A DNA stretch of 64,000 nucleotides from a virus. A program made the position numbers and the translations under genes. Location of the stretch: the IMG/VR virus record IMGVR_UViG_3300035145_001165, positions 1 to 64,000 of that record; one strand, written 5' to 3'. This document shows, one piece after another, positions 2,895 to 41,840 of the stretch; within the stretch, counting starts at the first letter, position 1, and every line of letters starts with the position of its first letter. The notes below the pieces were generated by a model that was given only the letters and a program-made list of their open reading frames with translations, was not told the DNA's origin and did not search any database.

Positions 2895-2903
2895 TTATTT
2901 ATG
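2895..2903 (-). promoter_or_regulatory. Late-type promoter motif CATAAATAA
   Basis: On the minus strand the sequence reads CATAAATAA, close to the T4 late -10 element TATAAATA. It lies 29 bases before the ATG of the 305-residue tail gene and overlaps the stop region of the preceding glycine-rich gene. There is no recognisable -35, as expected for sliding-clamp-dependent late promoters. Confidence 0.55.
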
Positions 2904-4203
2904 GTCTACGGAGGATCAACAACCCACCGCCACCACGTCCACCATTACTGCCACCAACAGCGACACCAGTGGAGTATGAAGACTGATTAGTCTGTGGTGC
3001 ACTAGAACCACTGCCAGGTTGTGTTTGTCCCTGTGTGACACCACCGATAAAACCTGATCCACCGCCACCAGCACCAGGACCAGTAGGCATAGGAGGTGTT
3101 TCAACCATAAACTCAGCGTTCATACCATAGTGTGCACCACACTGATAGTAGTATGTATCAGCATCACCTGGCGAAGGTGTCCAGGATACTGTGCCATTAT
3201 TTGTGCCATTATTAGTAGGACCAGTGAGAGAATTTGATGCACCAGCACCTAGTGAACCCTTCAGGTAGAAGGGGTGTGCTGCAGCATTAACATTAAACTC
3301 TACAGTATCACCCTCATAAATTGTGACACTAATGTTATCGCCACTGATAGAACCAGTTCTATCTGTACCACTCAGTGTGTATGCAGAGAAAGAACTAGCA
3401 GTTACATCGATGCTGAAAGTTTGTGCTCCACCAGTAGCGGGGACCATATAGTCATCACCACCACCGCCACCAAAGTATCCGCCACCACCTGATGCACCAA
3501 CTTGATTGCCAGCACCACCACGTAAAGCAGAACCATTGCAAGTAGCACCACCTCCACCACGGTGAATACCACCAGCAGTTTGTGTAGCACCAGTACCAGA
3601 ATAGTTTGTGTCACCAGCGTTGCCTAACAGACCACCACCAGCACCACCTAAAGCAACAGCACCTGCGCCACCACCACCGCCACCAGCGATGATTAGTGCA
3701 TTAGTTTGTGATATTGCTCCACCAAAGACACCAGTGTATCCACCACCACCTGCACCATCTTGTACGTGTGCAGTTAGAGCACCAACATTACCAGCACCAG
3801 TGTTGTATGCATTGTATGCATTATTATTGTCAGGTGTTTCGCTACCGCCTTCACCTGCACCACCAACTATAACATTGTATGTGGTACCTGCTCTGAAAAT
3901 ATAAACACCAGAGGCATAACCACCAGCACCACCTGAAGGACCCTGACTGTTTCTAGTACCACCGCCACCAGCACCCCAAGCTTCAAGCTGCAATGCAATG
4001 TCATTACTTACTGTGAATGTAGTGGCATAGTAACCAGTACCACCCTGTGCTTCAGCATTGATGGCAATCTCAGTACCACTCTCCAGTTCGTAACTATCGG
4101 TCAGTTGCCCCGCAAATTGTAATGTAGCTGTAGTAGACAGTTCACCACCACCAGCATTTCCTGCTGCAAAGATAGAACCTCGCGCCCAACCGATAGGACT
4201 CAT
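2899..4203 (-). CDS. Glycine-rich tail protein with cupredoxin-like domain
   Basis: 434 residues from ATG at 4203; the frame is open further upstream but that part overlaps the preceding gene, whereas ATG 4203 forms an ATGA overlap with its stop. Residues about 75-250 are a glycine-rich domain (WGAGGGG, GGAGGYASG, IIAGGGGGGAG) of the kind seen in phage tail fibre adhesins. Residues about 260-368 form a cupredoxin-like module with a full type-1 copper ligand set: His310 in AHPFYLK and Cys355-x2-His358-x2-Met361. This module is very similar to one in the giant protein at 7431-17147. A second Gly-rich tail closes the protein. Inference: surface adhesin. Copper binding is predicted, not shown. 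Confidence 0.82.
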   Translation of the reverse strand: MSPIGWARGSIFAAGNAGGGELSTTATLQFAGQLTDSYELESGTEIAINAEAQGGTGYYATTFTVSNDIALQLEAWGAGGGGTRNSQGPSGGAGGYASGVYIFRAGTTYNVIVGGAGEGGSETPDNNNAYNAYNTGAGNVGALTAHVQDGAGGGGYTGVFGGAISQTNALIIAGGGGGGAGAVALGGAGGGLLGNAGDTNYSGTGATQTAGGIHRGGGGATCNGSALRGGAGNQVGASGGGGYFGGGGGDDYMVPATGGAQTFSIDVTASSFSAYTLSGTDRTGSISGDNISVTIYEGDTVEFNVNAAAHPFYLKGSLGAGASNSLTGPTNNGTNNGTVSWTPSPGDADTYYYQCGAHYGMNAEFMVETPPMPTGPGAGGGGSGFIGGVTQGQTQPGSGSSAPQTNQSSYSTGVAVGGSNGGRGGGGLLILRRP

Positions 4204-5459
4204 TGAAACTCTGCTCCACCAACGAAACCGTACCAAGTAGATCCACCGTTCGGGGTGGATAATGTAACAACGTCCACATAACCTGAAGTTGTGGACAGAA
4301 CTGGAACAGTACCACCAGGCCACTTAGTATTAGGAGGCCAAGTAATGTTAAAGCTACCGTTAGATGTCAACACCAGTGTGATAGACACTGCACGTGCACC
4401 TGCAGGCAGGTTAACAACCATACTGTTAATGATGTCATTTCTAGTAACTGTGAAGACAGATGCTGATGTAGCATCCAGTGTCAACACATTAGAAACAATA
4501 CCAGCACTCATCGATGCTTCATCAAAGCATCCATTAACTCTGAATGGATTGTTGCAAGTAAAGATAGTAGGAGTAACCTCTACTTTATTGACAGTATTCA
4601 AGTCCACCTTAAATGTAGGTGCTGCACTGTCAGCGTTACTGATATGCAGATCTCCACCATCATTATAGATGGTAACAGGTTCTGTTCTCAGTGAGTTTTT
4701 ATGAAGATGCACACCAGACTTTTGTGCCTGTGAGGTGTTTGGCATCACCTCAATAAATGTACCCCACGCATTTGTATGATCTGATCTAAATCGTGCAACA
4801 ATATCGTCTTCAGTTGCAGGTGCCAAAGACAAAACATCCAGTCGTGATGCAGGTACAGCTGTACCAATACCAACACGATCAGTGGTGTTGTCAAAGAAAA
4901 TACCACTGGTCTTTACAGAAAATGATTGTCCTGCTGACAGTCCAGTAACATTGACATTAGCAGGCATCCTGGCATTGTCTAAATTACCAGATGTGACCTG
5001 TGCGGCAGAGATATTATATGTAATCTGATTAGCACCTTCCCAGATACTACCAGCACGGAACGAACCAGTAACATCTAGATCGTATGCTGGTGATCCAGCA
5101 GCACTACCAGTGACAGCAATCGCTGGCACATTCAGTACATCAACTGCAGGATCATATGTGAACGAGGCATCAGCATCGAGTGCAAGACCAGACTTAACCT
5201 GTACTTGATTGCTAGCATTACCTCCAGGTTGCAATCCACCAGGAAGACCACCACCAGCAAATAAGTTCCAGTTAGCAGTATCTACAGTACCAGTAACTGA
5301 CGGCACTGTGTTAGTGTTCGCTGCTACTGCGATGTAACTACTGATCGTGGATCCGTCGTTATACCACACAAGATCATCCACCACATATGCAGTGGATGAA
5401 TCCCAGTTTCCTCTCCAGGTAAGTTTAATCTTACCTACGTCGATAAAAAATTCTGCCAT
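4200..5459 (-). CDS. Tail-fibre-like structural protein, paralogue of the 1949-2866 gene
   Basis: 419 residues. The N-terminus (FIDVGKIKLTWRGNWDSSTAY) matches the DVGKIK module of the gene at 1949-2866. The C-terminal 100 residues (AGIVSNVLTLDATSASVFTV to WYGFVGGAEFQ) match that gene's C-terminus. The middle differs and includes a typical phage-fibre stretch (DNTTDRVGIGTAVPASRLDV) that resembles regions preceding trimeric fibre domains. It abuts the upstream FN3-repeat gene (stop at 5460) and overlaps the downstream start as ATGA, so the genes are translationally coupled. Likely a tail fibre or decoration protein; no catalytic residues are seen. Confidence 0.8.
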   Translation of the reverse strand: MAEFFIDVGKIKLTWRGNWDSSTAYVVDDLVWYNDGSTISSYIAVAANTNTVPSVTGTVDTANWNLFAGGGLPGGLQPGGNASNQVQVKSGLALDADASFTYDPAVDVLNVPAIAVTGSAAGSPAYDLDVTGSFRAGSIWEGANQITYNISAAQVTSGNLDNARMPANVNVTGLSAGQSFSVKTSGIFFDNTTDRVGIGTAVPASRLDVLSLAPATEDDIVARFRSDHTNAWGTFIEVMPNTSQAQKSGVHLHKNSLRTEPVTIYNDGGDLHISNADSAAPTFKVDLNTVNKVEVTPTIFTCNNPFRVNGCFDEASMSAGIVSNVLTLDATSASVFTVTRNDIINSMVVNLPAGARAVSITLVLTSNGSFNITWPPNTKWPGGTVPVLSTTSGYVDVVTLSTPNGGSTWYGFVGGAEFQ

Positions 5460-7427: not shown

Positions 7428-7436
7428 AATTTATGC
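7428..7436 (-). promoter_or_regulatory. Late-type promoter motif CATAAATTA
   Basis: Minus-strand CATAAATTA, one mismatch to the late element, lies 22 bases before the FN3-repeat gene and overlaps the last codons of the giant gene. Position and spacing match the other late motifs in this window. Confidence 0.45.
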
Positions 7437-10400
7437 GCAAGTGGGGTTACAGTCACCCAGATAACTAAAGAGGATCGGGAACGGTGCAGGGATCTGGAAG
7501 TCCAGAGTCCTGGGTGAAATTCCGTCTGTCACCTTGATTTGTGCGACACCTTCCATACCGATGATCGGTTGCTCTTCGTGACCGCGATCACGCAGAGGTT
7601 TAATGAAGTTACAGAAGTAATCATTAGAAGGTGTGATGCAAGCTCCGTTAGAAGTGTATGCGAAATCATATGTGTGATCCTGGCAAGGATCAGCAACTGC
7701 GACGAGGTTAATCAAGTCAACCAGATCAAACGGAGACTCAACCAGTTCCACCCACAATGTGTAAACCTTTTGGGTACCACGTGCAGGGAAGATAGCGGGT
7801 TGAATGTCATTCTTCACTGTGAAGTCAACAGGTAAGTTGACGTTAGTGTCACCACGGAACGGGCATTCGCGAAGCAAACCAGTTGCTGTTGCAAGTTGTC
7901 CGCTGTAAGTATTAAAGTCGCCAGTGTTAACGATGGTAGGACCGTTGGCGTGAGCAGGATTGTTTAAGGTATAAACAGTTCTGTTGCCACCGTTCACGGT
8001 CTCCATATAGGGGAATTCATTAATCAGGCGCAATCTCCAGGTAAATTGACCAGCATCGATAGTGTACGAGCAGGTCACATCCTGAGTACCATTGTTAGTG
8101 ATAGTCAGGTTTTGTGCACCCTTGTAGTAGTCTTGAATCTGCAGGGTATTGATATCAATGTAAGGCAATGCACTCAGAGGTTCAGGACCAACGTCAATCA
8201 CGAACGAGCGAATAAACACGTTACCGAAGTAATCACCACAGGTCAGTGTTGTATCCACAAATCCTTGATCGTGACGCAGGTAACCGTTAGAAACGGTACC
8301 AGACCAACCGTTGTCGTACTCATACCACCACATACCCAGTTCAGGTGGGTTTGCAATCACGCTAATCTCGTTAGACACAGACGAAACTGCTGCACCATTG
8401 GAGATCGTGAGCTGGAAGGAATAAGGATCGTTCTCACCATTAGGAATACCCTTACAAGGCAGGTCTGTAACACGGATCACAGAACCGTTGTTGTCCAGAG
8501 GCGGCAGCAGTTGAGAAGAAGAACCAATCGGAATCTCAATCTGGTTACCACCGTAGTTCACGCGAAGCGGGAATTCTTCGTCGAAGGAGATATAGTTCTC
8601 GATATAGCTGCTAACGCCGTCTTGAACACAAGAAGGAAGGTAAGCATTTTGAACATTACCAAAATCTCTTCTAGATCTGTAGTGAGGAGAATTCAACGGC
8701 ACATATGTGCTGAAAGTATTCTCGATCGTATCCCAGTTGTAAGACTTAACACCAGTCGAAGTGTTGTAGTCATACAGTTTCTTGTACCAGTTGTACTGAA
8801 TGTTTTGGTCAGTACAAGACAGGTTCACAGGATAACGTCCTGCCTTAGGAGACTTGTTAGAAGACTGATAAGGAAGTGTGTTGGGGAAATGTGTCAGACC
8901 ACCATATTCTGTGATCACCGAGTATGTGCTAGCAGTAATTGCAGTAGCACCAGAACTCATATTCAGCAGAGGCTGAGCAGGCAATGCAGGCAGGTTGCTA
9001 ACAGTCAGTTGAACCGAGTTACTAATAACTGCATTGTATACGCTATCGAAGTCGATGTGCTGAGTTGCAAACGAGCTACCACCTTCCTGACCGAAGTAGA
9101 TAATATCTCCAACGTGTGTCTCAAGAATGATAACATCAACCCAAGCGCCAGGAGTACCAGGGGTACCGTAGCGACGGACGATATTGCTTGCTAGTGCACT
9201 ACCTGTAGCGGACTCACGGATTTCAAGATTCTTACCTGTCCAGGAAGAATCACTGATGTCAAATCTGTAAGTTGCTCCCTTAGGTGCCGTGTACACTGTA
9301 GAACCAGATTGGTTCACAACAACAGCATAGTCGTTACCGCTAGCAACCAGATTAAATGTGCGACGGAAGCGAAGCTTACAACGGAAGAACGCATTTGCAT
9401 ACTTCCACCACTTGTTAACAACCAGATAACAACCAGTCAGTTCACGTTCGGCAACATCTTCATATCTCTCCATATAGGAGTAGATTTCATCACGGTTTTC
9501 AACATTATTAGAGAACCAGTCACCTTCCTCAAGCATACAGGAGTTGCCAGGTGTAGCAAGACCAGTAGAATACTCGTTCAGGTTATACCACAGGAATCCA
9601 TTGCCATCTCCCTTATCACCATAGACTTGCCAGAAGGGCAGGTAGTCAAAGTCGCTGTTTTCGTATGCAGTTTGATTGACCCACAGTTGGAAAATCTTAT
9701 AGAACATTTCACGTGCTTGCCAATCTTGACGTGCCCACACATCATCATCTTGAGGTTGACCATCTTTCTTGGTAACAGCAGCATAATCAATGTTCCTGCT
9801 AACTGGTTGAGCAATAACAGTAATGTCTTGAGTAGTGGTTGTGGTGTTGGTAAGTTGAATAGTATAAGTTTGAGTCTGACCAGAGATGTTCTCTTCGACA
9901 GTCAGTGTCAAGTCAAGAGTAGTATTGTTAATCAGAACACCACTCAGAGTACCCAGTTCAGTGTCGAATACCAGACCAGTGCCGTCGATGCTATCACCAG
10001 TCAGAGTGTAATCTCTGGCGAAGATAGATTCGTTAGCATATGTTCTCAGGAATGAAACACCAAGTTGCAGATTGACGGTATCGCCAATGTTATAAGTGCC
10101 AAGAGGACCAGCAGCAGTGTACCAAGTGGTAAGGAGGTTGATGTAAGGTGACACAACACCTCTCATCACGCCACCATCAACACCACGGTCAACAGGCAGG
10201 TTCATAATCTCAGTACCTTGACCCTGACCAGCATCTTCCTGAGCTTCAGTCTGGAAGTACAGTTTGTGACCCACAGGGTTGATATCCATCCACTTCTGGA
10301 CGCCATCATTGTCCTGGTGTGTACCGCGCAGGTTAGAAACCTTCAGGTAGTTACCACCTTCTTCAGAGAATGCAGCAGTAAACTGTGCTGCATTAGGTTC

Positions 10401-13400
10401 AATCTCAAAGCGTTGGTTGACAGTATCAACATCAGTGATGGTGTGCCAATAGCGTTGCATAATGTTGAATTCGATGCCACCAATGTCATAGACATAAGAC
10501 TCAGATTCGTTAGCAATCTCACCAGGGAGTACAGGATCTGCTCTGAAGGACGGACCCATAATGTATGGGAACGAAGGTTGCAGGTTATCATCTTCAGTGA
10601 TGAAGTATGCATATGTACCGTTCGGGTAGTCAGGAGTCACACAATAGCGACCGTTAATTCTATCAAGGTCACCAGTGATGATACGCTCACCCATATTAGA
10701 GTGGTTGTAGCAGAAGTAGAACAGCGATTGAGGTGCGTTAGATTGAGGCGTGTACTCAACACTTCTCTGTGTAGCAGTATCGAATCCAGCAATATATGCT
10801 GCATAGTCAACCTCAACACCCTCAAGTTTGTAGACAACACCAGATTGGAAGACAGCGTTAGCATCACCAACATCTTGTCCAGCAACGTGCCAACCTTGTG
10901 CAGTTGCCTCACCATATACTGAGAGCAGCATAGCGTGAGAGGTGTTAGAAGCATCACTCAGGTTGAAGATATACTTTCTACCCTTGCGGAAATTAAACGA
11001 AGGTTTCTCAACGGTACCAGATAATGTACCACCAGAGATGTAGTAACGACCACCGCTACCAGTTGCAGTAGCAGCTGCTGCCTGAACATTAAATGTGGTC
11101 TCTAATGCATCTTCGTCAGTGTTACCAGGATGCTCAAAGTCTTCAATGAATGATCCATAAGGATAGTTGAGGGTAACAGGACGGTTAGCAAACATATCAG
11201 GTGTTCTGCCAACCAACTTCATCAGATAACTAGGCTTCATTCTGATAACAGCAGAGCTGCTATTCATTTCACTGGAATATCCGTAAGGACCATAGATCGG
11301 ATAACCATCGAATGCAACACCAAGGATCTTAGAGTGACCATCAGCGTGACGCTTGTAATCACCCTGAATGTCGCTGTTCACAGTAATGCTGTGACCCATT
11401 CTCTCGTGATTAGTACAAACATAGTACATCGCATTAGGTGCATCAGTCGGAACAACAATCTGCACCGAACGTGTTGCTGCACTATCAAAAGAATTCACAT
11501 AGGTAACGGCATCAACCGCTGCACCATTAAGGCGATATGTGACATTAGTAGCATACTTAACACCACCGCCAAAAATGCCATCGTCAGTCGTACTAAGATA
11601 AATTGGGTGCCCATTATTGCTCGAATCGTCCTGATTGAAGATATAAGTGTTGCCTCTAGTAAATGTCAGTGCTGCACCTTCAGTGGCTGAAGGGAAACCA
11701 GGACCAGAAAGCAGGTAACCGTTAGCAGAACCAGTACCGAACCAAGGGTGAGCAGCAGTCTTAGCACCAACAGTAACTGTATATGTCAGTGTGCTGAATC
11801 CTAAGTCGAAGTAAGAACCAGACAGATAGTTGGAAGCAGCAATAGTTGTGGAATTATAAGCAGCAAGGAACTTACTGCTGTTGTATCCATAGATATTAGC
11901 ACTGCTCGGGAAACCACCAAAGGAATCTTCACCAACCAAGTTACCATTAGTAACAGTGTTGTATGTCCAACCAGGAGTAGGACCTTGCTCATTGCTGTAG
12001 TCATACAGGAATACGCCTGTAGTCGTCATACCGAACGGAGCAATCGAGCGGAGTGGTTTACTATCTGGAGTAGCATCAGCAAAGTTGGTACCACCTCTCC
12101 AGTTGATATTCTGGTTAAATGCCTGATCAACAATGCTGTTGGGGTTACCAGCAGTAATTGCAATCGAAGAAACAGCAGTTGCCTGAACACCACCAAACAC
12201 ATTCGGAGCACTAATGTTAACCGTAGGTGCGGCAGTGTAGTTTGTACCAGCGTCATCAATCGTCAGGGAGCTAACGTAACCATCCAGCACCGAGATGTTA
12301 GGAGATGCAGCAGCGCCAACACCACCGCCTCCAGAGAAGGTGATCGTTGCACTGGTGTATCCAACACCTTCATCGTCCATCGTGACACCAGACACAACAC
12401 CGATCTGTGTACCAATAGTAGCACCAGCAGCTGCAGGTTGCTCAAAAATCGGGTTTTGTGGTGGAGAGTTGCCTTCTACAATAGGATCACCATAGTATTC
12501 ATCACCCAAGATGTAAGGGAATGCAGGTTGATTAGAGTTATCAACCGTCATAAAGTAAGCGTAAGTACCACCAGGGAACTCAGGTGTCACACAGTAACGA
12601 CCATTTCTGCGATCAAGGTGACCAGTTCCCGCATATTCATAGTCTTCCACGAAAGAACCCAGAGGATATGCTGTCGTAGATGGTGCATAACCAACAGGTT
12701 CAGAAAGTGTAATCGTACCCGTCATTGCCTGAGCATTCTCAGACACATAGTAGTAGGTACCTGCCGCAGCAGTTGTTGTGTTCCACAGAATAGTAGCGTT
12801 GTAACTACCATTGTTCGTCACAGAAGCAACAACCTGAGTCGGGTTGTAAGGAGCAGGAACAGTCTGGATCCACATCGGGTGGGTCACAGTTGTACCACCA
12901 CCGCCACCAGCAGCTTGGATAGTGATCGTGCCGACCATACCAGAGTGGAACTGACACTGGTAGTAGTAAGTACCAGCGGATCCAATTCCAGGTGTCCAGG
13001 AAACAGTACCAGACTCAGTACCTTGGTTAGTAACACCAGAGATCTGGTTGCCAGTACCAGTACCAGCAGAAGTCTTCAGGTAGAACGGGTGACCAGATGC
13101 AGACACCGTGAAGTTGATAGTATCACCTTCGTAGAATGTCAATGCAGGATCGTTACCACTGACGTTACCAGATCTGTCGGAACCAGAAACAGAATAATCA
13201 CTGAAACTAGGTGCAGTAACAACTAAGTTGTAGGTTTGTGGTGTGCTACCACCGCCACCACCAGTGGTGTAAGAAGCATTAACGTTAAGCACAAGGTTGT
13301 CACCGACGTTAGCAGCAATTGCAACGTCAGTACCTGTTGATTGTCCCGTGAAATCATAGTCCAGCGAATCATCTGCAGTGACAGACCAGTTGTAAGTAGA

Positions 13401-16400
13401 TCCACTATACTGCTGACCATCACGCTGTGTCTTCACATTCCAGGAAGACTGCATTCTGCTCAACGTGGTCGGAGATGCAGGGTTATTGTAACCAATAGGA
13501 CCGTAGATCGGATAACCATCATATGCATAACCAATCACAGGAGAGTGAACTGTTCCGTTCGTGATGTCATCACCAGTGTGGGATGGCAGCGCAGCAGTGT
13601 TAGCAGTGGTGGTAACAGAAGCACCGTTGCCGTAACCACTGTACAGCGAACAGTAGTAGAACAGGTTAGGAGTATTAGGTTGGAGTTGCAGGTAGAGACC
13701 TGTGCCAGATTGACCGTCTCCAGGTGTGCCCTGATAGCGGGTGCCAATCTCATACTCTACACCACCCTGAATGTGTACACCATCATTAGTTTCCGAAACA
13801 CGGAAAGGATAACCTGTGTTGGTAGAGTCGGACTGATCAAAGTAATAAGTATTGCCTTCAGTCAGAACAAGGTTAGGTGTAATACCACCATTCAGATAAT
13901 ACTTGTTACCAGATCCAGGATTTGAAACTGTAACAGTATAAGTTGTGGTAGATCCCTTCCAAGTATTGAGGAGGAAGTTGTTGTTAGTGTAGTAGTATGC
14001 ACCATTGCTATCAACGATGCCACCACCATTGTCAGCACCAAACTTGGCACTATTAAAGATTTTGTTGAAAGTATAACCATCAGGGCAACCAGTGCCATCA
14101 GGTAGATCTGTATTCAGACCGTGAGAATAGTGACGCAGTTGAACACCATTCAATGCAACACCAATGCTAGTAGCAGCAGTGGTTGAAACGTGCGGATCAT
14201 CAGCAATGTTTCTACCACCTCTGTATGTAAAGGTGTGGTTGTAAGACTGACCAGTAATACTGTTGCTGTTGTTAGCGTTCGGGAAAGAACCATACAGAGC
14301 AGGTTGTGGCAGGTTGTCTGCAGTAACAACCAGTGCTCTTGTAACAACGTTCAGCGAAGATGTAGTGGTAGATCCACCACCAGACACGAAAGAAGCGTCA
14401 GGAGCGTGAACTGTGTTACCCTGGTTTGCAGGAGCAGAAGGTGCGATCGTAACAGTAGGTGCTTCAGAGTAACCACTACCAGCGTTTGTGATAGTAATGC
14501 TAGTGATCTCACCATCAACCACAACTGCTTGTGCTGCAGCACTAGAACCGCCACCACCAGAGAATGCAATCGTAGGCAGGTTAAACGGATTGTAACCAGA
14601 ACCACCGTTGGTAACTGTGATACTTTCAATACCACCACCAGTCAGTGAGATAGTAGCAGTTGCTGCAGCGCCAGAACCATCACCAGTGATAATCACGTCA
14701 GGAGCAGAGGTGTAACCAGAACCAGGCTGGTCAATATTGATGCTAGTGATGTTACCACCAGTCAGTGTGATACCTGCTGTTGCAGCAGCGCCAGCGCCAC
14801 CACCACCAGTAAATGAAACTGTAGGTACGCTAGTATAACCAGAACCTTGGTTCTGAATCGTCAGGTTGTTAACATAACCTGTAGTACCACCAGAGGGGAA
14901 CACACCATAGTCACCAGGCGCAGGGTGGTTATCGGAAACAATGTTTAGCAGACCACCTGCAATGTAGTATGCAGCAGTCGGGGATTCTGCACTAGAAACC
15001 CAAACGTCGGTAACAACATCAACAGCAGGGATTGCCTCAGGAACGCGAATCTGAATTCTGTCGCCAATTTGAGGATCAAATCTTGCATATTCTGTTCCCA
15101 AAGTGAAAGAGATAACGTTAGATGCAGCACCTGTACCAATCTTGGTATTGATACCATCAAAAGTAATCTCATCAATGTCGTCAACAGGATACACATTGAC
15201 ACTACCGCCACCATATTCTTCACCAACGGGGACGCCATCACGCTCATAATCCCAAACAATATTCCGACGGAGCCACTCTTTAGCGAGTTTAGGCACAGAC
15301 TTACCACCGTAAGTAACTCTGTTCTGATAATTCATTCTGCCCAGATACTGAGCAACAACACCAGCAGTCAGTGGACCAGAGAACGATGTACCTCTAATCA
15401 GAGCATAGTAAGTGCTACCAACAGAGTTGTAAAGAGTGTTGGTGTTCCAGTAATAATGCGGGCAGTAGATAGATTCTCCAGGTGCACTAGTAGTCACACC
15501 TGAGCCATAGTTAGAGAACTTGGAGAAGGTATTGATGAAACCCGTCGCACCGACAGAGATCTTGTCACTAATACCCTCCATATTATATCTGTAGTCCTGA
15601 GGACCAGCAGTACGAGGACCAGGGTGGAACTTTGCCTGATAACCACCATATCTGGTGTTGTAACCGAAACCGTTACCAGCGGAGCGCACATAAACAATGC
15701 CAGAATCACTGACAAGATTCTCATAGTCATCCATAGCAGTGTCTGCTTCATAAGCACCACTATCGAATCCAGGTTCGTTCTGAGGAACATAAGGGAACAC
15801 CTCAGAAGGAATAGCACTCACACCCAGTGATGCGTTCACAACAGCAGGTCTGTTGTTACCCTTCCAATCAGGATGACTCGGATCATTGTGATTAATGATC
15901 GCCAACATTGCGAACACATAGGTAGACAAAGCACCACTGCCCTGACTATTCTGCACTTTCAGTGCATAAATTCTTGCTTTACGAGCGAGACCGTGCTGCA
16001 AACCAGCAGCCATAATGGCACACTCTGTACCGTGACCATTGTCATCTTCGTTTGAGTTTGCTTCACCATTAACAGTATAACCAGAGTTATACCCAGGAAC
16101 CTCATAAACTCTATATTCGTTCTGATTAGTAAGATCGTTCAGATCACCTGCATAATCAGGGTGGAACAATTCAGGGTGAAGGTTAGCACCTGTTGCAGAT
16201 GTAGGACGTGATGCACCACGGACACCAGAGTCGATGATGTAAATATCAACACCATCACCTTCCTCGGTGTAAGAATAGAGACCGTAGTCCAAACCATTCT
16301 GCCCTTGCGTCAGACGTGAGAGGTACCACTTAGAGAACATCGTCACCTTACCAGAATCGGTAGATGCGACTGCTTCGTTATTTAGAATACCGACTTTAGA

Positions 16401-17147
16401 AGTTTCTCTAGCGTAGTAATAGAGCTGCTTCGGAGTCGTCTGACTCATCGTCAGTTCTATCCGCGCCCCAGCAGTACCAGGAGTACCAATACGAGACACA
16501 CCAACAACGTATTCAGTGCCTCCGTTGTGAGTTCCATCTGGGGTCTCCGAGAATGCCAGGGTGTAGTTGAAGAGAGACGCCGATGAACAATCAATGTTCA
16601 AGACGTGTCCTGGCATTATATAATTGATTTCAGGGTTCTGAAAAGACCCATTGATATAAAACTTAGGACCGTAAGATGTATTTGTTACAGTCAGGGTAAC
16701 ACCGTACTGTGTACCAGCACCAACGGTGTAGGGAATAACGTTACCGTAATCAAGGGGTTTAATTTGCTGTGCGAGACTTTCGGTAGTATCTCCTTCAGCG
16801 ACTAGGGATGCAGCAATATCATTTCTATTTTGCAGGGTAGATGTAGGAGGATTGTTTGCCAGATCCTCCAGAACTTCCTCGGGGCAGAACTGCACACCAC
16901 CTTGTTCCTGACCTGCAGGATCAATAGTGATCTCTCTATCCCAGATAGCACCAATAACCTCAGGGAAATCATCACTCTTCAAAATAGTGATGAAATTATC
17001 ATCTTTGCTTGCAAAATCAAGCATCACTGTCTTGAGTCTACTCAAGTCGTGAACATTCTGTAGTGAGGTAAAACGCTGTTTTGCTCTCTCGATTACAGCG
17101 TGTGCTTGATTTTCTTTAGAAATCCTTGCAATAATTCTATTGCTCAT
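7431..17147 (-). CDS. Giant multidomain virion protein with subtilisin-like protease, cupredoxin and YHYH-like modules
   Basis: 3238 residues, by far the largest gene here. Residues about 295-605 are an S8 (subtilase) protease with all key residues: Asp306 (IIDSGV), His372 (NGHGT), oxyanion Asn492 (SAGNG) and Ser588 (GTSFSGP). Residues about 760-905 hold four repeats with motif GSGYTSxP. Two YHYH-like domains carry the signature DGYPIYGP (near 1210 and 1948), each interrupted by a cupredoxin-like insert. Complete copper ligand sets (His, then C-x2-H-x2-M) occur at 1353/1398/1401/1404, 1847/1911/1914/1917 and 2071/2146/2149/2152; other copies have lost ligands. The last 1000 residues are beta-rich and not recognised. 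The gene sits in the tail-fibre region with a late motif upstream. Inference: structural tail protein that cleaves host surface or processes tail proteins. Confidence 0.88.
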   Translation of the reverse strand: MSNRIIARISKENQAHAVIERAKQRFTSLQNVHDLSRLKTVMLDFASKDDNFITILKSDDFPEVIGAIWDREITIDPAGQEQGGVQFCPEEVLEDLANNPPTSTLQNRNDIAASLVAEGDTTESLAQQIKPLDYGNVIPYTVGAGTQYGVTLTVTNTSYGPKFYINGSFQNPEINYIMPGHVLNIDCSSASLFNYTLAFSETPDGTHNGGTEYVVGVSRIGTPGTAGARIELTMSQTTPKQLYYYARETSKVGILNNEAVASTDSGKVTMFSKWYLSRLTQGQNGLDYGLYSYTEEGDGVDIYIIDSGVRGASRPTSATGANLHPELFHPDYAGDLNDLTNQNEYRVYEVPGYNSGYTVNGEANSNEDDNGHGTECAIMAAGLQHGLARKARIYALKVQNSQGSGALSTYVFAMLAIINHNDPSHPDWKGNNRPAVVNASLGVSAIPSEVFPYVPQNEPGFDSGAYEADTAMDDYENLVSDSGIVYVRSAGNGFGYNTRYGGYQAKFHPGPRTAGPQDYRYNMEGISDKISVGATGFINTFSKFSNYGSGVTTSAPGESIYCPHYYWNTNTLYNSVGSTYYALIRGTSFSGPLTAGVVAQYLGRMNYQNRVTYGGKSVPKLAKEWLRRNIVWDYERDGVPVGEEYGGGSVNVYPVDDIDEITFDGINTKIGTGAASNVISFTLGTEYARFDPQIGDRIQIRVPEAIPAVDVVTDVWVSSAESPTAAYYIAGGLLNIVSDNHPAPGDYGVFPSGGTTGYVNNLTIQNQGSGYTSVPTVSFTGGGGAGAAATAGITLTGGNITSINIDQPGSGYTSAPDVIITGDGSGAAATATISLTGGGIESITVTNGGSGYNPFNLPTIAFSGGGGSSAAAQAVVVDGEITSITITNAGSGYSEAPTVTIAPSAPANQGNTVHAPDASFVSGGGSTTTSSLNVVTRALVVTADNLPQPALYGSFPNANNSNSITGQSYNHTFTYRGGRNIADDPHVSTTAATSIGVALNGVQLRHYSHGLNTDLPDGTGCPDGYTFNKIFNSAKFGADNGGGIVDSNGAYYYTNNNFLLNTWKGSTTTYTVTVSNPGSGNKYYLNGGITPNLVLTEGNTYYFDQSDSTNTGYPFRVSETNDGVHIQGGVEYEIGTRYQGTPGDGQSGTGLYLQLQPNTPNLFYYCSLYSGYGNGASVTTTANTAALPSHTGDDITNGTVHSPVIGYAYDGYPIYGPIGYNNPASPTTLSRMQSSWNVKTQRDGQQYSGSTYNWSVTADDSLDYDFTGQSTGTDVAIAANVGDNLVLNVNASYTTGGGGGSTPQTYNLVVTAPSFSDYSVSGSDRSGNVSGNDPALTFYEGDTINFTVSASGHPFYLKTSAGTGTGNQISGVTNQGTESGTVSWTPGIGSAGTYYYQCQFHSGMVGTITIQAAGGGGGTTVTHPMWIQTVPAPYNPTQVVASVTNNGSYNATILWNTTTAAAGTYYYVSENAQAMTGTITLSEPVGYAPSTTAYPLGSFVEDYEYAGTGHLDRRNGRYCVTPEFPGGTYAYFMTVDNSNQPAFPYILGDEYYGDPIVEGNSPPQNPIFEQPAAAGATIGTQIGVVSGVTMDDEGVGYTSATITFSGGGGVGAAASPNISVLDGYVSSLTIDDAGTNYTAAPTVNISAPNVFGGVQATAVSSIAITAGNPNSIVDQAFNQNINWRGGTNFADATPDSKPLRSIAPFGMTTTGVFLYDYSNEQGPTPGWTYNTVTNGNLVGEDSFGGFPSSANIYGYNSSKFLAAYNSTTIAASNYLSGSYFDLGFSTLTYTVTVGAKTAAHPWFGTGSANGYLLSGPGFPSATEGAALTFTRGNTYIFNQDDSSNNGHPIYLSTTDDGIFGGGVKYATNVTYRLNGAAVDAVTYVNSFDSAATRSVQIVVPTDAPNAMYYVCTNHERMGHSITVNSDIQGDYKRHADGHSKILGVAFDGYPIYGPYGYSSEMNSSSAVIRMKPSYLMKLVGRTPDMFANRPVTLNYPYGSFIEDFEHPGNTDEDALETTFNVQAAAATATGSGGRYYISGGTLSGTVEKPSFNFRKGRKYIFNLSDASNTSHAMLLSVYGEATAQGWHVAGQDVGDANAVFQSGVVYKLEGVEVDYAAYIAGFDTATQRSVEYTPQSNAPQSLFYFCYNHSNMGERIITGDLDRINGRYCVTPDYPNGTYAYFITEDDNLQPSFPYIMGPSFRADPVLPGEIANESESYVYDIGGIEFNIMQRYWHTITDVDTVNQRFEIEPNAAQFTAAFSEEGGNYLKVSNLRGTHQDNDGVQKWMDINPVGHKLYFQTEAQEDAGQGQGTEIMNLPVDRGVDGGVMRGVVSPYINLLTTWYTAAGPLGTYNIGDTVNLQLGVSFLRTYANESIFARDYTLTGDSIDGTGLVFDTELGTLSGVLINNTTLDLTLTVEENISGQTQTYTIQLTNTTTTTQDITVIAQPVSRNIDYAAVTKKDGQPQDDDVWARQDWQAREMFYKIFQLWVNQTAYENSDFDYLPFWQVYGDKGDGNGFLWYNLNEYSTGLATPGNSCMLEEGDWFSNNVENRDEIYSYMERYEDVAERELTGCYLVVNKWWKYANAFFRCKLRFRRTFNLVASGNDYAVVVNQSGSTVYTAPKGATYRFDISDSSWTGKNLEIRESATGSALASNIVRRYGTPGTPGAWVDVIILETHVGDIIYFGQEGGSSFATQHIDFDSVYNAVISNSVQLTVSNLPALPAQPLLNMSSGATAITASTYSVITEYGGLTHFPNTLPYQSSNKSPKAGRYPVNLSCTDQNIQYNWYKKLYDYNTSTGVKSYNWDTIENTFSTYVPLNSPHYRSRRDFGNVQNAYLPSCVQDGVSSYIENYISFDEEFPLRVNYGGNQIEIPIGSSSQLLPPLDNNGSVIRVTDLPCKGIPNGENDPYSFQLTISNGAAVSSVSNEISVIANPPELGMWWYEYDNGWSGTVSNGYLRHDQGFVDTTLTCGDYFGNVFIRSFVIDVGPEPLSALPYIDINTLQIQDYYKGAQNLTITNNGTQDVTCSYTIDAGQFTWRLRLINEFPYMETVNGGNRTVYTLNNPAHANGPTIVNTGDFNTYSGQLATATGLLRECPFRGDTNVNLPVDFTVKNDIQPAIFPARGTQKVYTLWVELVESPFDLVDLINLVAVADPCQDHTYDFAYTSNGACITPSNDYFCNFIKPLRDRGHEEQPIIGMEGVAQIKVTDGISPRTLDFQIPAPFPILFSYLGDCNPTCA

Positions 17148-17180: not shown

Positions 17181-17189
17181 TTATTTATC
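17181..17189 (-). promoter_or_regulatory. Late-type promoter motif GATAAATAA
   Basis: Minus-strand GATAAATAA lies 34 bases upstream of the giant gene, in the 45-base gap after the 2OG oxygenase stop. One base differs from the T4 late core TATAAATA. Confidence 0.5.
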
Positions 17190-17192
17190 AGA

Positions 17193-17879
17193 TTACAGTT
17201 CTGCTTTGCTTCGTATCAGGTACATATGTTCCTCGTCAACGAACTTCTGCAGTTGCCACGCTGACCCTCCGTGTTGCAAATCTTCCCGAGAAAATTTTTC
17301 CGATAATTCTCTATTCATAAGGCGATTTCTGCCAAATGCTTCACGGTCACTAATGTTACGGAACATCGACTGGTGCCACATCAGTGCAACATCTCTTACA
17401 CCATCAGTAACTTCAGTAACTTTATGTCGCAACCCTGTAGGATAACTAAATGCCCATCCAGCAGGTAACTTAACAGACAAAATTTCTGTACCAAGTTCTA
17501 TCAGCAGTTCCCCACCTTCATAGTCATCAGGATTACTAAGAAAGATAGTTGTACTGACATCAGAGCGAAGTTTTTCATCGCCTCCCATTAATGTCGCATC
17601 GCAATGCCAATCGTAATGATGTCCTGGCAGATAGCGTGCAAATATAGGTAACGTCTGTCTGACTGGTGTTGTGAAATTCATCACCACGTGGTTTTCTTCC
17701 CACGAAGGTTTGATGAGATCCCACGCATTATAAGAGTTAGGATAATCCATCTGAAGATTACTCTTCAGATTTTTATCTGGGGATCCTGTGTCAGATCCAT
17801 CTATCCAATCACAAAAATCATAAAAGTTACCGACGTGCTTTAGTTGTACTTCACTCAAAAGTTCATAACGATAAAGCAT
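17193..17879 (-). CDS. 2OG-Fe(II) oxygenase, PKHD/prolyl-hydroxylase type
   Basis: 228 residues. The iron-binding triad is visible as His92-x-Asp94 in DWHCD and His152 in GLRHKVTEV, with Arg162 as the expected 2-oxoglutarate ligand. The segment DYEGGELLIE between them is typical of PKHD-type hydroxylases, which hydroxylate protein side chains using O2, Fe(II) and 2-oxoglutarate. The gene lies between the giant fibre gene and a tail-assembly-chaperone-like gene. This context suggests, but does not prove, that a virion or host protein is the substrate. Spacing to the upstream stop is 2 bases, so it is operonic. Confidence 0.85.
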   Translation of the reverse strand: MLYRYELLSEVQLKHVGNFYDFCDWIDGSDTGSPDKNLKSNLQMDYPNSYNAWDLIKPSWEENHVVMNFTTPVRQTLPIFARYLPGHHYDWHCDATLMGGDEKLRSDVSTTIFLSNPDDYEGGELLIELGTEILSVKLPAGWAFSYPTGLRHKVTEVTDGVRDVALMWHQSMFRNISDREAFGRNRLMNRELSEKFSREDLQHGGSAWQLQKFVDEEHMYLIRSKAEL

Positions 17880-18539: not shown

Positions 18540-19187
18540 TTAACTATTGAGAAGATACCACCCAGTCAAGATATATTTATCGCCTTTAAGAACTAGGTTC
18601 CCTTTATGGACGTGAGTATATCCTGCTGGCCAAATAACAAGGGTTCCTTGGTTTGCTTTAATGCGACGCTTCTGGTGCAGAAACTCAGTTTCACCACCTT
18701 CATAATCATCATTCAAATAAATCGCCCACACCAGAACCCTAGAAGAATGATCTAGACCCATCGCTTCATAATGAAACTGATGATAACCACCACCTTCAGG
18801 GGTGTGTTGCATCTTAATAGATGTACTGATCAGACCCTGACCACGAAGTTGACCATACTCAAAAATATAATGTTCTAAAGCAGACTGAATATATTGATGT
18901 GCTATCTTAGTAAGTTCGTGGTTATTATGGTTCAGAAGAATCTGATTATCATTCCTACCAAGAGAACCATTATGGAACTGAAATCTACCATCACCAACAT
19001 TATCTTGAATGTCGGGAGAGTGTAAGGAATACTGATCCTTCAGTGTTCCCATCCAATCAGTAAATTGCTTACATACAGCGGCTGGCATAAGTCCATCCCA
19101 GACGCCTATAAAATCTTTAAATTCAACATTAGTAATGTTTTCGTCCAACATCAGTTCGATGGGACGAATAGGGGGTACACCTTCCAT
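18540..19187 (-). CDS. 2OG-Fe(II) oxygenase, prolyl 4-hydroxylase-like
   Basis: 215 residues with the double-stranded beta-helix pattern of 2OG oxygenases: GGGYHQFHYEAMG, then WAIYLNDDYEGGETEF, then GTLVIWPAGYTHVHKGN and the end strand KYILTGWYL. The first iron motif is His139-x-Glu141 rather than the common His-x-Asp; the distal ligand is His192. The usual 2-oxoglutarate-binding arginine appears to be replaced by lysine near 202-204. Such H-x-E variants can still bind iron. Starts 6 bases after the stop of the tail-collar gene, in the fibre operon. Substrate unknown. Confidence 0.82.
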   Translation of the reverse strand: MEGVPPIRPIELMLDENITNVEFKDFIGVWDGLMPAAVCKQFTDWMGTLKDQYSLHSPDIQDNVGDGRFQFHNGSLGRNDNQILLNHNNHELTKIAHQYIQSALEHYIFEYGQLRGQGLISTSIKMQHTPEGGGYHQFHYEAMGLDHSSRVLVWAIYLNDDYEGGETEFLHQKRRIKANQGTLVIWPAGYTHVHKGNLVLKGDKYILTGWYLLNS

Positions 19188-37374: not shown

Positions 37375-38718
37375 TTAACAATTTTTGTTCATAGAATCTT
37401 TTACTAAAGTTGTTGCAGTAAAACATTCGCGTGGTGACATAGTATATCTATGCGCTAAGCGGAAGATTAAATAATCACCACCACGCCTGAGATCTTCATC
37501 GTCTGCTTCCTTTTCTGCATCAGGTTTTGAGGATTGAATGTGGAGTTTAATCTTGTCACCAGCACGGAGTTCAGAGTTGCCTGGTACAACAACGTTGCTC
37601 ACATTCATTGCCATTGTAGCACGGCGAGCGTTGTATTGACAAACAGTGTAGGGTTGCCAGTCAGGATACTCTGTATTAACTTCGCTACCGTCTCTACCTG
37701 TAGCATCAGATGCTGCTTCTTCTTCATTGAAGAATGCTTCGTTAGTGGTACTAAGTTTAAAAGTCCTGGTAGGTCTACCTTGAGACTGATCATAATCATC
37801 TAACCATTTCGTCAACCACTCAGGGAATGCACTTTTAGAACCGATGTGTGCCCAGTCATCCCAGTGATCACTGAGTTTCCATTCTTCTTCTTTAAACTCC
37901 TGAGAATCTGTATTAGTAACAGCAATCACAGCACGGAAGACACCGTTGTCTGCTAATGATTTGAGATCACCATCACGTTCGACAGTATAATTTTGAATGA
38001 TCAAGTGCTCAGGAATTTTACCTGTGTTAGCAGGAGACTGATAGTATTCCCAGTCTGCTTCCTTACCACCATAATCATCTTCTTTGCCAGTAGATAGCAG
38101 ATGATCAATAGATGCGAAAGTGTAACCATCTTTCGTACCCCACAAGAAATACCCACAGGTGTTTGCTTTCTGACCACTAGTAGGAATAGATTGAGTGCAC
38201 ACTCTGCGTGCCATCTTAGCAACAGAGATACCTTCGCCTCCGAATAGAAGTTTGTTGAATGGTTTATCACCACGCACCATAGGAGCTGTTGAGATACCAG
38301 AATCTTGGAAGACCGTAGCAAGAATCTGATCACCAGTTCCTACATATGTTTTCTCGCACCTGAAGTTAGAGAATGCTTTGCTATCTGCACTGATCAGATT
38401 GATAGTAGCAATCTTACCCTTGAATGAAAGGAAAGGAGACTTAACGTCACCGACTACAAACTTATACTCTTTTTCTTCGTCACTAGTCTGATCTGTCAGC
38501 AAAACAATTCTAAACTCTTCACCACCAGTGAGAGGGAGATCTTGTGCTGCTAAGTCTGTGACTGTAGCGACAGCAGTAGGACAAATTCTCTCCAGATCTT
38601 CGTAGTATGTAAAACTAGCGAGGTTATTGTTAAGAGTCAGGGTTTCACCTGTGTTCAAAGAAATCTCACACAGAATAAGTTTCCATCCAAGTTGTGCTTC
38701 GGAAGAGGGTTCTGCCAT
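37375..38718 (-). CDS. Baseplate hub protein, gp27-like
   Basis: 447 residues. Gene order (after gp54, gp26 and the tape-measure-like gene, before the gp5-like hub) and overall pattern fit the T4 gp27 hub role. The N-terminal half has beta-barrel-type strands (TYYEDLERICPTAVATVTDL, with VGDVKSPFLSFKGKIATIN). The C-terminal region includes RRATMAMNVSNVVVPGNSEL and an ending KDSMNKNC. In T4, gp27 forms the trimeric ring that holds gp5. Sequence identity with T4 cannot be judged here, so the call leans on synteny. Its start shares one base with the upstream stop. Confidence 0.7.
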   Translation of the reverse strand: MAEPSSEAQLGWKLILCEISLNTGETLTLNNNLASFTYYEDLERICPTAVATVTDLAAQDLPLTGGEEFRIVLLTDQTSDEEKEYKFVVGDVKSPFLSFKGKIATINLISADSKAFSNFRCEKTYVGTGDQILATVFQDSGISTAPMVRGDKPFNKLLFGGEGISVAKMARRVCTQSIPTSGQKANTCGYFLWGTKDGYTFASIDHLLSTGKEDDYGGKEADWEYYQSPANTGKIPEHLIIQNYTVERDGDLKSLADNGVFRAVIAVTNTDSQEFKEEEWKLSDHWDDWAHIGSKSAFPEWLTKWLDDYDQSQGRPTRTFKLSTTNEAFFNEEEAASDATGRDGSEVNTEYPDWQPYTVCQYNARRATMAMNVSNVVVPGNSELRAGDKIKLHIQSSKPDAEKEADDEDLRRGGDYLIFRLAHRYTMSPRECFTATTLVKDSMNKNC

Positions 38719-41700
38719 TAGAAATCAAGGTTGAAAATGTGACCGCCATCCTTGACGGGAGACATTGTGGGGAACAGTGCTACGTTGCCAGAGGCAGCAG
38801 TAGTACCACCATCAGCAGTAGCGGCACCCACAGGAGCGTTAGCAGCAGAAGTTAGTTTCTCCATCAGAGATGCCATCGGAGCGAAGGCAGCAGTTGCTGC
38901 TTCAGACATACGTTCTGGAACACCCTTCTCCTGCATAGAAGTTTGAGCTGATCTGAGTCTTCCCTCAAGACCTCTTAGTCTTCCAGTAACTCTCGAAGTC
39001 ACAGAAGATGGTTGTGATGTGAACGCCGAGGAAGTAGAACTTAACATATCTGCTGAGTTGCTACTAAAGTTTGACTTACCAGAGAAGGGTGCCTTCCAAT
39101 CGTATCCCATCTTGAGGGCGTCACCTCTAGTGCCAGGCATACTCTTAGGAGCTCCAACATCAGTGGGACTAGTGGAAACTTCCCAGTGTAGGTGAGGACC
39201 ACTAGATCTACCAGTGTTGCCAACATATCCAAGCAGATCTCCCTTCTTAATCTTCTGACCTTCACGAACCTTAGCACGGTTCTGCATATGTGCCCAGAGG
39301 TGTGACCTTCCGTTGTCATCATTCCAGATCACGGTGTTACCGTAACCACCAAAGTAACCAACACCACGGTTAGATTGAACAACACCATCAGAGAATGCTA
39401 CCAGGGGTGTTCCTTCTGGTGCAGCAATATCAACACCCATATGGTTGTCTTCTTTCCTGCCATCACCATCCATATCACGCCAACCAAAGCGAGAAGTGAC
39501 GACGATGTTATTCATTGCACCAGCGCCACCTTGACCACCCATACCACCTTGACCACCCATACCACCCATCATAGGAGTGCGACCAACGATACCTCTATCA
39601 TCACCACTACCCGTTCCAGGTGGTGCTTGTGGAACTTCAGCGTTAGGAAGACTCAGATCCATACCATCGACAAAAGAACTGAGGTTACCAATAACATCGC
39701 CACTGAAGACTTCCTCAGTACCCTTAACCATATTGCGGAGAGCATCACCACCCAACCAACTAGGAACATTGTCAATCAGTTTTTTAATGAATGACATTCC
39801 GTTTGCAACGAGACTGGCAACACCTTTGACAACAAAGGCGAACATATCAACCAAAGCTTTGTAGTACTTGGCAATGATCTGGATTATCGGTACCAACACT
39901 TTCATCAAAAGTTTAGCAAGAACACCAATAATTCTACCGATATTCTTCAGAGCACCAATAAATCCGCCACCCTCACCAGACTCTCCACCGACACCGAAGA
40001 CAGCAGCAAGTCCATCCATCGCGCTCACGATAGAACCACCAAGTTCTTTAAAGGATGTGATCACTGGACCGAAAGTCTTACCCCAGTCGAATGATTTAAA
40101 TGTGTTCGCGAATCCTTCACCCAGGAACTTACCAACGTTCTCACCCAACCAGGAACCAACAGCAGCACCCAGTGCGATACCAACAGGACCACCAACAGCA
40201 CCAAGGAAACCACCGATGACTGCACCTGAACCTGCACCGAGACCTGCGCCTGCTGATCTACCAACGATCTTCGCTTTATCTTTCTGCAGACTACCATCAG
40301 CAAGACCAGCGTTGACTTGCTCTCGTGTCATATTATTCTCTTCCATCAAACGCTTTATCTCTTCCTCGTTCGCTTCCATAGCACCGAAGCCAGCGGAGAG
40401 AAGAGAACCAATGACAGGAACTCTACCGACACCTTTACTCACTATACCACCAGTGCTCTTGAGTAAATCAGCGCCGCGCTGAGCAATACCAGCACCAGCA
40501 CCGAGCACACCCTTACCACCTTTAAGAATTGCACTAGCACCACCAGCGAGTCCCTTGCCAGCACCTGCAAGAGCTTTGCCAAGGTTAAAGTTTAAGATAC
40601 CACTCTTAGCAGCAGTTGCTAAGGTACCGACAAGACCCTTAGCACCCTTAGCAAGATTTAAAATTTGTCCAGGCAATGCTTTGAAAATATTTGCCAGAGA
40701 CTGTATTGATTTTACTTTTAATTTACCCAGGTTGGCTAACAGATCATTGAGGGCTTTACCAGTTCTAATGTTTCTACCAGCACGGAAGAAACCACCCGCT
40801 TCATCTGCAAGACTACCAGCACCACGTGCCATATTTGGGAAGGGACGACCTGCGGTGCGGAGAACACTTGCATCCTGAGCACCAGTGATGCCCTGCATAA
40901 ACAACGTACCCTGCTGCTTGATAGCACTAGCAGTGTTTACAAGTTTGCCTTTAGCATTAGCACCACCACCGACAAGTCTTTGGAACCTAGAAGCAACACT
41001 CTTGGTAGGATCACCAGTACGTGCTGCTAATCTAGCATCAAATAAAATTTCATCAAGACTATTCTTAAGACCTCCAACAGTAAAACCTTTGGTTTTTACT
41101 GGACTCTTTGCAACAGTATCCAACCCATCAGTGGCAGCATCGAATGCTCTACCAGCACCTGCGCCAGCAGCGTTCCTAACAGTCTGTCTTATACCACCTT
41201 CTGCAGGATTTCGGAATCGCTTCGCAATGGCACCACGAACTGCTGCACCATCTTTAAGCTTGGACATCTTCTTAGATGTCGCAAGACCCATACCAATGTT
41301 ACCAATGCCAAAGGCACTGAACCCCGCAATGGGGGTCATTAAATTCCTTAACTTATTATACTCAATGGCAGCTCGCCTGCCAAAGTTTTGTAACTTAACG
41401 TCTGCTGTTTCTAAAGCATTAGCAAGACCTGCAACACCATCAGCAAGGACACCAAGGATAGCATCCGACTGTGTTACAGCAAGAGTAAGAGCACCTGCGG
41501 CACCAGCAGCAAGCAGTGCCTTCTTTAACTTCTCAAAGTCCAGACCCTTCTTACTACCACCTTTCTTTGCAAAGGGGTTAGAAATTCTGGGACCTGCCTT
41601 ACGCTGCTTCTCAATTGCAGTTTCTTGGGCAGCGAACTTGCCCTTAGAAATCATCTTGTTTTCTAAGGCAAGACGAGAACGCTGAAGTTTAAGCGTCTGC

Positions 41701-41840
41701 GTCTGCAGATTTACCAGATCGTTAAGAAGAGCGTTAGTAACCATCTGCTGCTTCACAGAAGCAGCTTGGATTTTAACAAGATCAGTGTTAGCAGATCCCG
41801 TCAGCGGATTATTCTTATACTTACTGGTGTCTAATGCCAT
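38718..41840 (-). CDS. Tape-measure-like hub protein with M23 (LytM) peptidase domain
   Basis: 1040 residues. The N-terminal 100 residues are helical (LLNDLVNLQTQTLKLQRSRL). The middle is Ala/Gly-rich with several hydrophobic stretches (GAVIGGFLGAVGGPVGIAL), as in tape-measure proteins. Residues about 780-890 are an M23 metallopeptidase: His800-x3-Asp804 in HMGVD, His847/His851 in HLWAH, and His883-x-His885 in GPHLHWEV. M23 enzymes cut peptide bridges of peptidoglycan. The gene sits where T4 has gp29. Inference: during injection the domain opens the cell wall, a job T4 gives to the gp5 lysozyme, which is missing here. Confidence 0.82.
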   Translation of the reverse strand: MALDTSKYKNNPLTGSANTDLVKIQAASVKQQMVTNALLNDLVNLQTQTLKLQRSRLALENKMISKGKFAAQETAIEKQRKAGPRISNPFAKKGGSKKGLDFEKLKKALLAAGAAGALTLAVTQSDAILGVLADGVAGLANALETADVKLQNFGRRAAIEYNKLRNLMTPIAGFSAFGIGNIGMGLATSKKMSKLKDGAAVRGAIAKRFRNPAEGGIRQTVRNAAGAGAGRAFDAATDGLDTVAKSPVKTKGFTVGGLKNSLDEILFDARLAARTGDPTKSVASRFQRLVGGGANAKGKLVNTASAIKQQGTLFMQGITGAQDASVLRTAGRPFPNMARGAGSLADEAGGFFRAGRNIRTGKALNDLLANLGKLKVKSIQSLANIFKALPGQILNLAKGAKGLVGTLATAAKSGILNFNLGKALAGAGKGLAGGASAILKGGKGVLGAGAGIAQRGADLLKSTGGIVSKGVGRVPVIGSLLSAGFGAMEANEEEIKRLMEENNMTREQVNAGLADGSLQKDKAKIVGRSAGAGLGAGSGAVIGGFLGAVGGPVGIALGAAVGSWLGENVGKFLGEGFANTFKSFDWGKTFGPVITSFKELGGSIVSAMDGLAAVFGVGGESGEGGGFIGALKNIGRIIGVLAKLLMKVLVPIIQIIAKYYKALVDMFAFVVKGVASLVANGMSFIKKLIDNVPSWLGGDALRNMVKGTEEVFSGDVIGNLSSFVDGMDLSLPNAEVPQAPPGTGSGDDRGIVGRTPMMGGMGGQGGMGGQGGAGAMNNIVVTSRFGWRDMDGDGRKEDNHMGVDIAAPEGTPLVAFSDGVVQSNRGVGYFGGYGNTVIWNDDNGRSHLWAHMQNRAKVREGQKIKKGDLLGYVGNTGRSSGPHLHWEVSTSPTDVGAPKSMPGTRGDALKMGYDWKAPFSGKSNFSSNSADMLSSTSSAFTSQPSSVTSRVTGRLRGLEGRLRSAQTSMQEKGVPERMSEAATAAFAPMASLMEKLTSAANAPVGAATADGGTTAASGNVALFPTMSPVKDGGHIFNLDF

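Follow-up and report, generated by a model that had tools for sequence, protein, structure and literature searches.

A giant tail-cluster protein with a predicted subtilisin-like protease in a T4-like cyanophage is a long variant of the T4-GC 519 family

Enzymes that cut sugars or peptidoglycan are a known feature of phage tails. Tail-cluster proteins with a subtilisin-like (S8) protease domain are likewise encoded by cultured cyanophages, and the closest described ones form a single family (T4-GC 519 / PHROG 27200) carried by P-HM1, P-HM2, MED4-213 and S-BM3, in which homology spans an N-terminal domain, the S8 domain and a further domain that we call X. In the Prochlorococcus phages P-HM1, P-HM2 and MED4-213 the proteins (1827-1840 aa) are annotated as hypothetical or Ig-domain proteins only, and the gene stands directly before gp13. 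The member in the Synechococcus phage S-BM3 (SBM3_00202, 2648 aa, OQ319121) is named "peptidase S8" and carries the record note T4-GC_519 Peptidase_S8; its gene is found downstream of gp8, a context that also differs from the gp13 context of P-HM1 and P-HM2. The S8 domain itself is therefore already named in the annotations of S-BM3, as it is in those of other cyanophages. An earlier note on the DNA studied here knew of no described system with this combination of domains, a statement that can no longer be upheld, as the family is present in the four cultured phages and, after two scans of viral contigs that returned first 117 relatives and then more, in at least 189 viral stretches. Precedent also comes from annotated subtilisin-like proteases within the tail clusters of other cyanophages. 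A search of open-licence papers for subtilisin, S8 or YHYH in cyanophages turned up none that describes or tests this protein.

The window analysed here is the whole stretch of 64,000 nucleotides, i.e., positions 1 to 64,000 of the virus record IMGVR_UViG_3300035145_001165, which comprises 80,457 bases. Judged by its gene content the virus is a T4-like cyanophage: the record holds T4-type baseplate genes, the photosystem D1 gene (psbA), a second reaction-centre gene (psbD-like), a Nol-like carbamoyltransferase gene and a gp32 with 71% identity to that of Synechococcus phage S-H9-1. For the first 24 kb, the phage collection searched offered no close match at the DNA level. On the minus strand, on which all window features named below are located, positions 7431-17147 (ATG at 17147) encode a protein of 3238 residues, as the earlier note had proposed. 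A protein of equal length, 100% identical over residues 1-640, is encoded by an independent metagenome contig (L001), so that the reading frame is no assembly accident. The tail-operon setting claimed for the gene is equally borne out. It adjoins short-tail-fibre genes, tail and baseplate genes of the T4-like cyanophage surround it, and the giant protein itself matches PHROG tail and virion families.

Directly upstream lies a 2OG-Fe(II) oxygenase gene (17193-17879; PF13640, E 2e-9), and a second one is located further upstream at 18540-19187; these oxygenases could hydroxylate tail proteins. Elsewhere in the window, a tail protein at 38718-41840 ends in a Peptidase_M23 domain (E 3e-27), and the virus therefore probably also carries a peptidoglycan endopeptidase. 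A tandem pair of cyanophage outer-membrane beta-barrel genes (Phage_OMP, E ~1e-43; L086:193-555 and L086:661-1032, genome 64193-65032), both with apparent signal peptides, was observed in addition.

Residues 266-630 (15258-16352) are assigned to a proteinase-K-like S8 catalytic domain by Pfam, PDB sequence search and Foldseek. The Pfam family Peptidase_S8 (PF00082) matches residues 297-605 with E 1.8e-24 and a score of 87 bits (cut-off 21.8), and within this match the full catalytic set stands exactly where it had been read from the sequence: Asp306 (codon 16230-16232), His372 (16032-16034), the oxyanion-hole Asn492 (15672-15674) and the nucleophile Ser588 (15384-15386). The Asp/His/Ser triad and the oxyanion Asn keep S8 order and motifs. 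A PDB sequence search with the domain returned aqualysin I, keratinase and proteinase K. For the earlier note, a structure prediction that breaks the triad geometry would have counted as refutation; at the level of the fold no such break appeared, and both AlphaFold models obtained (the better one with mean pLDDT 74.4 and pTM 0.79) resemble solved proteinase-K-like proteases, with a Foldseek E of 7e-15 and TM up to 0.81. A subtilase fold is thus predicted for the domain. The Cys of the HGTxCA motif, a feature of proteinase K, is invariant among the relatives as well.

Whether such a domain is still an enzyme has to be considered, since phage fibres often reuse enzyme folds and the YHYH domains of the same protein have lost their name-giving motif; the S8 domain might accordingly be a dead structural or binding domain. 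We regard this as very improbable. Of 120 relatives, 119 have the complete tetrad (some of these loci share one contig), the sole exception being a contig with a broken ORF, while identity in the remainder of the domain drops below 50% and that of the catalytic domain as a whole to about 42-47%; neither the GTSFSGP nor the NGHGT motif is disrupted. Sequence and models together make catalytic competence well supported. A reading of the gene as part of a defence system (PADLOC "subtilase", E 1.2e-8) was rejected, as the match is limited to the generic S8 fold.

The protein begins with an alpha/beta domain (residues 1-75; 16923-17147) that we interpret as a probable I9-type prodomain. Residues 1-70 are modelled at pLDDT ~90 as beta-alpha-beta-beta-alpha-beta, which is the topology of subtilase prodomains. 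Four separate sequence tests of residues 1-75 against Inhibitor_I9 gave nothing significant, and the interpretation is based on the predicted topology, the position ahead of the protease and the distant relatives: in distant cyanophage S8 proteins the N-termini match I9 prodomains by profile, scoring 25.0 where shuffled sequences reached at most 13.4. In S-BM3 the catalytic domain follows almost directly after the N-terminal domain.

The relatives fall mainly into a short form of ~1680-2085 aa, whose gene is directly upstream of gp13 in 47 of the 65 loci that extend far enough downstream, and a long form of 3227-3297 aa, whose gene is directly downstream of the 2OG-Fe(II) oxygenase gene and, unlike in P-HM1 and P-HM2, not directly upstream of gp13. 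All long-form contigs examined have such an oxygenase gene as neighbour, its end ~34-46 nt ahead of the S8 gene, and in many short-form loci one lies within 4 kb (39/58 loci overall). Still shorter ORFs on a few metagenome contigs (L004/L091, L037 and L040) were not accepted as natural short forms, since they look like frameshifts caused by sequencing error or decay. A cellular origin was considered too, but no cellular homologue was found: the hits of the one genome scan were confined to a phage contig within a Prochlorococcus single-cell genome and one phage-like contig binned as Dehalococcoidia. The latter (L088, PBPE01000110.1; 7 kb) carries the phage S8 gene beside gp13 and looks like phage contamination of the bin.

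Three parts recur throughout the set of 61 full-length relatives: the N-terminal domain, the S8 domain and domain X, a stretch of 220 aa at residues 2222-2440 (9828-10484) that none of these 61 lacks. Among 50,697 phage records X occurs in only four distinct phages, exactly those that carry this protease family. A scan of viral contigs, seeded mainly from one form and covering the best 80 loci, gave the same picture: S8 accompanies X in each of the 65 testable ORFs, and 15 more end before the S8 position. These distributions point to X as an obligate partner of this S8 family and suggest that the conserved unit consists of the N-terminal domain, S8 and X, with GSGY repeats, YHYH domains and cupredoxins as variable additions. 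The combination highlighted by the earlier note is thus real in its parts, but it was drawn up from modules that vary among relatives and missed the two constant partners of the protease, the N-terminal domain and X. The partnership of S8 with X and the probable prodomain appear to be undescribed. In the long form, ~1,590 residues made up of GSGY repeats, YHYH domains and cupredoxins separate S8 from X. Behind X, the C-terminal region (residues 2441-3238; 7434-9827) matches no known family; its last ~340 aa are the best conserved section in the long form, and the C-terminal 988 aa of the protein found no match in the PDB.

The variable modules include four GSGY repeats of ~41 aa (residues 756-910; 14418-14882), with the tetrapeptide at 768, 809, 849 and 890. 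The count agrees with the original reading and was reached in none of 2000 shuffles; by PHROG, the region matches other virion proteins. The two YHYH domains reported earlier are real as profile matches (PF14240, five stretches, E 1.1e-44). Each, however, is cut into three by cupredoxin-like inserts, and the YHYH tetrapeptide is absent from the whole 3238-aa protein. Pfam and alignment to S-BM3 place domain 1 at residues 926-1548 (12504-14372; segments 926-1066, 1190-1242 and 1497-1548) and domain 2 at residues 1668-2210 (10518-12146; segments 1668-1773, 1924-2009 and 2158-2210). Domain 1 is collinear with the uninterrupted YHYH domain of S-BM3 (1549-1829), and in an alignment by eye AYYYT and NIYGY replace the EYHYH of S-BM3. 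The YHYH domain has been proposed to be a metal-dependent hydrolase (PMC7824862). The His residues of its motif are presumed to bind the metal.

Mapping with profiles (a BLAST self-comparison for repeats was uninformative) supports six cupredoxin-like modules, one of them split around another, and weakly a seventh, in line with the several modules first noticed. The first, at residues 148-257 (16377-16706; iE 1.4e-16), sits between the N-terminal domain and the protease, has lost its copper ligands and is absent in S-BM3. The insert at residues 1068-1178 (13614-13946) has incomplete ligands. The module at 1304-1410 (12918-13238) appears nested within a second module that is itself split (1250-1296 and 1418-1481). 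It shares with the inserts at 1787-1923 (11379-11789) and 2017-2158 (10674-11099) a complete His...Cys-x2-His-x2-Met set, found in these three of the six modules: H1353, C1398, H1401 and M1404 in the first, H1847, C1911, H1914 and M1917 in the second, and H2071, C2146, H2149 and M2152 in the third. This is the ligand set of type-1 copper cupredoxins. A profile built from ligand-bearing modules retrieves plastocyanin and amicyanin from the PDB (E 4e-5 to 1e-3); as its modules were picked by the ligand pattern, ligand conservation within it is no independent evidence. A glycine-rich (ALK/LTK-type) tail protein at 2899-4323 holds a further cupredoxin module (its residues 301-407) that is 57% identical to residues 1304-1404 of the giant protein, i.e., one module type is inserted in two unrelated tail proteins. 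Cupredoxin modules have thus been found inserted into loops across several different tail domains.

Between the ATG and the next gene upstream are 45 nt, which contain the T4-type late promoter motif GATAAATA (17182-17189). TAAATA occurs within 60 nt upstream of the start in 66 of 70 relatives, compared with 2.3% of background windows. In the window, 7 of the 11 minus-strand ATAAATA sites are situated 15-45 nt upstream of gene starts (binomial P ~1e-10); likely late promoters of this type are found at 2896, 17182, 18574, 30273, 32336, 43566 and 57281. Hydrophobicity gives no evident sign of a signal peptide or membrane segment in the giant protein, so that its obvious exit route would be on the virion or by lysis. 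A virion location is probable, and a distant relative bears on it. The protein SSCSM1_228 of phage S-SCSM1, which has a full S8 tetrad by inspection, carries the record label "baseplate wedge subunit (virion protein)". Forty-five virion proteins of that phage are reported from mass spectrometry (PMC9602691). About 48 proteins in the S-SCSM1 record bear the "(virion protein)" label, and since these include the non-structural NMNAT and translational repressor, the label probably marks peptide detection.

Synthesis in the cytoplasm with no evident signal peptide would also suit a late intracellular enzyme outside the virion that degrades host proteins, e.g., light-harvesting complexes, or helps lysis. 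Cyanophages remodel host photosynthesis, and psbA and psbD-like genes are present in this very record. The S8 domain is, however, fused to thousands of residues which by PHROG are typical of virion structural proteins, its gene has a late tail-cluster position, and SSCSM1_228, albeit distantly related, is labelled a virion protein. Taken together this renders an intracellular role improbable.

Our best explanation, to which we give about even credence, is that of a late protein of the tail or baseplate fibres which bears a subtilase zymogen and acts on host-surface protein at entry. The gene would be transcribed late together with the tail genes, and cytoplasmic synthesis would yield a zymogen whose N-terminal domain aids folding and keeps the protease off inside the host cell. 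With domain X as a fixed accessory of the protease, the giant protein would be built into tail or baseplate fibres, where the remaining chain would anchor the protease to the virion and may touch the host surface. Carried by the particle, the protease would then digest or trim outer-surface proteins of the host during adsorption and entry. The late, tail-cluster and catalytically intact steps draw on sequence evidence, while zymogen control, virion presence and the host-surface target are what we infer from it. All contexts observed place the gene in a tail cluster: here it adjoins short-tail-fibre genes, in 47/65 loci it directly precedes gp13, and in S-BM3 it is downstream of gp8.

The same late promoter and tail-gene neighbours would also fit the main rival, a tail-maturation protease that cuts itself and/or neighbouring tail or fibre proteins in late assembly and has no role against the host. 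Subtilases normally cleave at least their own prodomain, very long modular neighbours are at hand as possible substrates, and the ~1,590 residues that part S8 from its partner X in the long form would be compatible with cleavage, which would separate the prodomain or free the protease from the fibre. Tail assembly, by contrast, is universal in T4-like cyanophages, whereas the S8 family is patchy among them; for this reason we favour a host-facing trait over a core assembly step. Moreover, among the genes compared, no constant neighbour suitable as a substrate is common to the two gene contexts. Sequence alone cannot separate a host-surface target from self-maturation, but with these observations we consider maturation rather unlikely. 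Returning to the host-surface protease, a more specific version is possible, which we put forward tentatively and with well below even confidence: the obligate cassette of N-terminal domain, S8 and X would be a dedicated, tail-borne entry protease, a zymogen activated at the host surface, which would open the way for T4-like cyanophages by cutting proteins of the outer membrane or surface layer, and the swappable cupredoxin inserts would tune or protect the fibre. If active, a general protease on the tail would be a different kind of phage entry tool. Ocean cyanophages commonly carry the cassette, the culturable P-HM2 and S-BM3 among its carriers, and PHROG 27200 / T4-GC 519, filed as function unknown, gains a testable function.

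Compared with the known systems, the protein described here shares most with P-HM1, P-HM2 and MED4-213, namely the N-terminal domain, a cupredoxin-like module, an S8 domain of ~46% identity with an intact tetrad, domain X, and the tail-cluster position of the gene. Their proteins are ~1,400 aa shorter, no YHYH domain is matched by Pfam in P-HM2, and their genes do not directly follow a 2OG oxygenase gene. S-BM3 shares the N-terminal domain, S8, X and YHYH; it has no cupredoxin between N-terminal domain and protease, and its YHYH domain is uninterrupted and keeps the YHYH motif. Within the S8 catalytic domain of S-BM3 (L082) we observed a cupredoxin-like module (285-396), placed between segments that match residues 458 and 467 of the protein described here. 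More distant are the subtilisin-like proteases of S-WAM2, S-H9-1, S-H38 and S-CREM1, which have an S8 fold and an I9-like prodomain and are encoded among tail/baseplate genes, but are small (550-559 aa where measured), ~25% identical and devoid of YHYH domains and cupredoxins, with no X found. SSCSM1_228 (1411 aa) is likewise a large multidomain tail-cluster protein with a prodomain-like N-terminus and S8, the latter ~23% identical; it carries laminin-G-type domains rather than X, YHYH and cupredoxins. Aqualysin I, keratinase and VPR proteinase share the catalytic set, the Cys beside the catalytic-His motif and the fold (TM up to 0.81). These proteinase-K-like subtilases are secreted, free enzymes, whereas the S8 domain here is embedded in a probable phage structural protein. 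The long form with its nested inserts is a new variant of the T4-GC 519 family.
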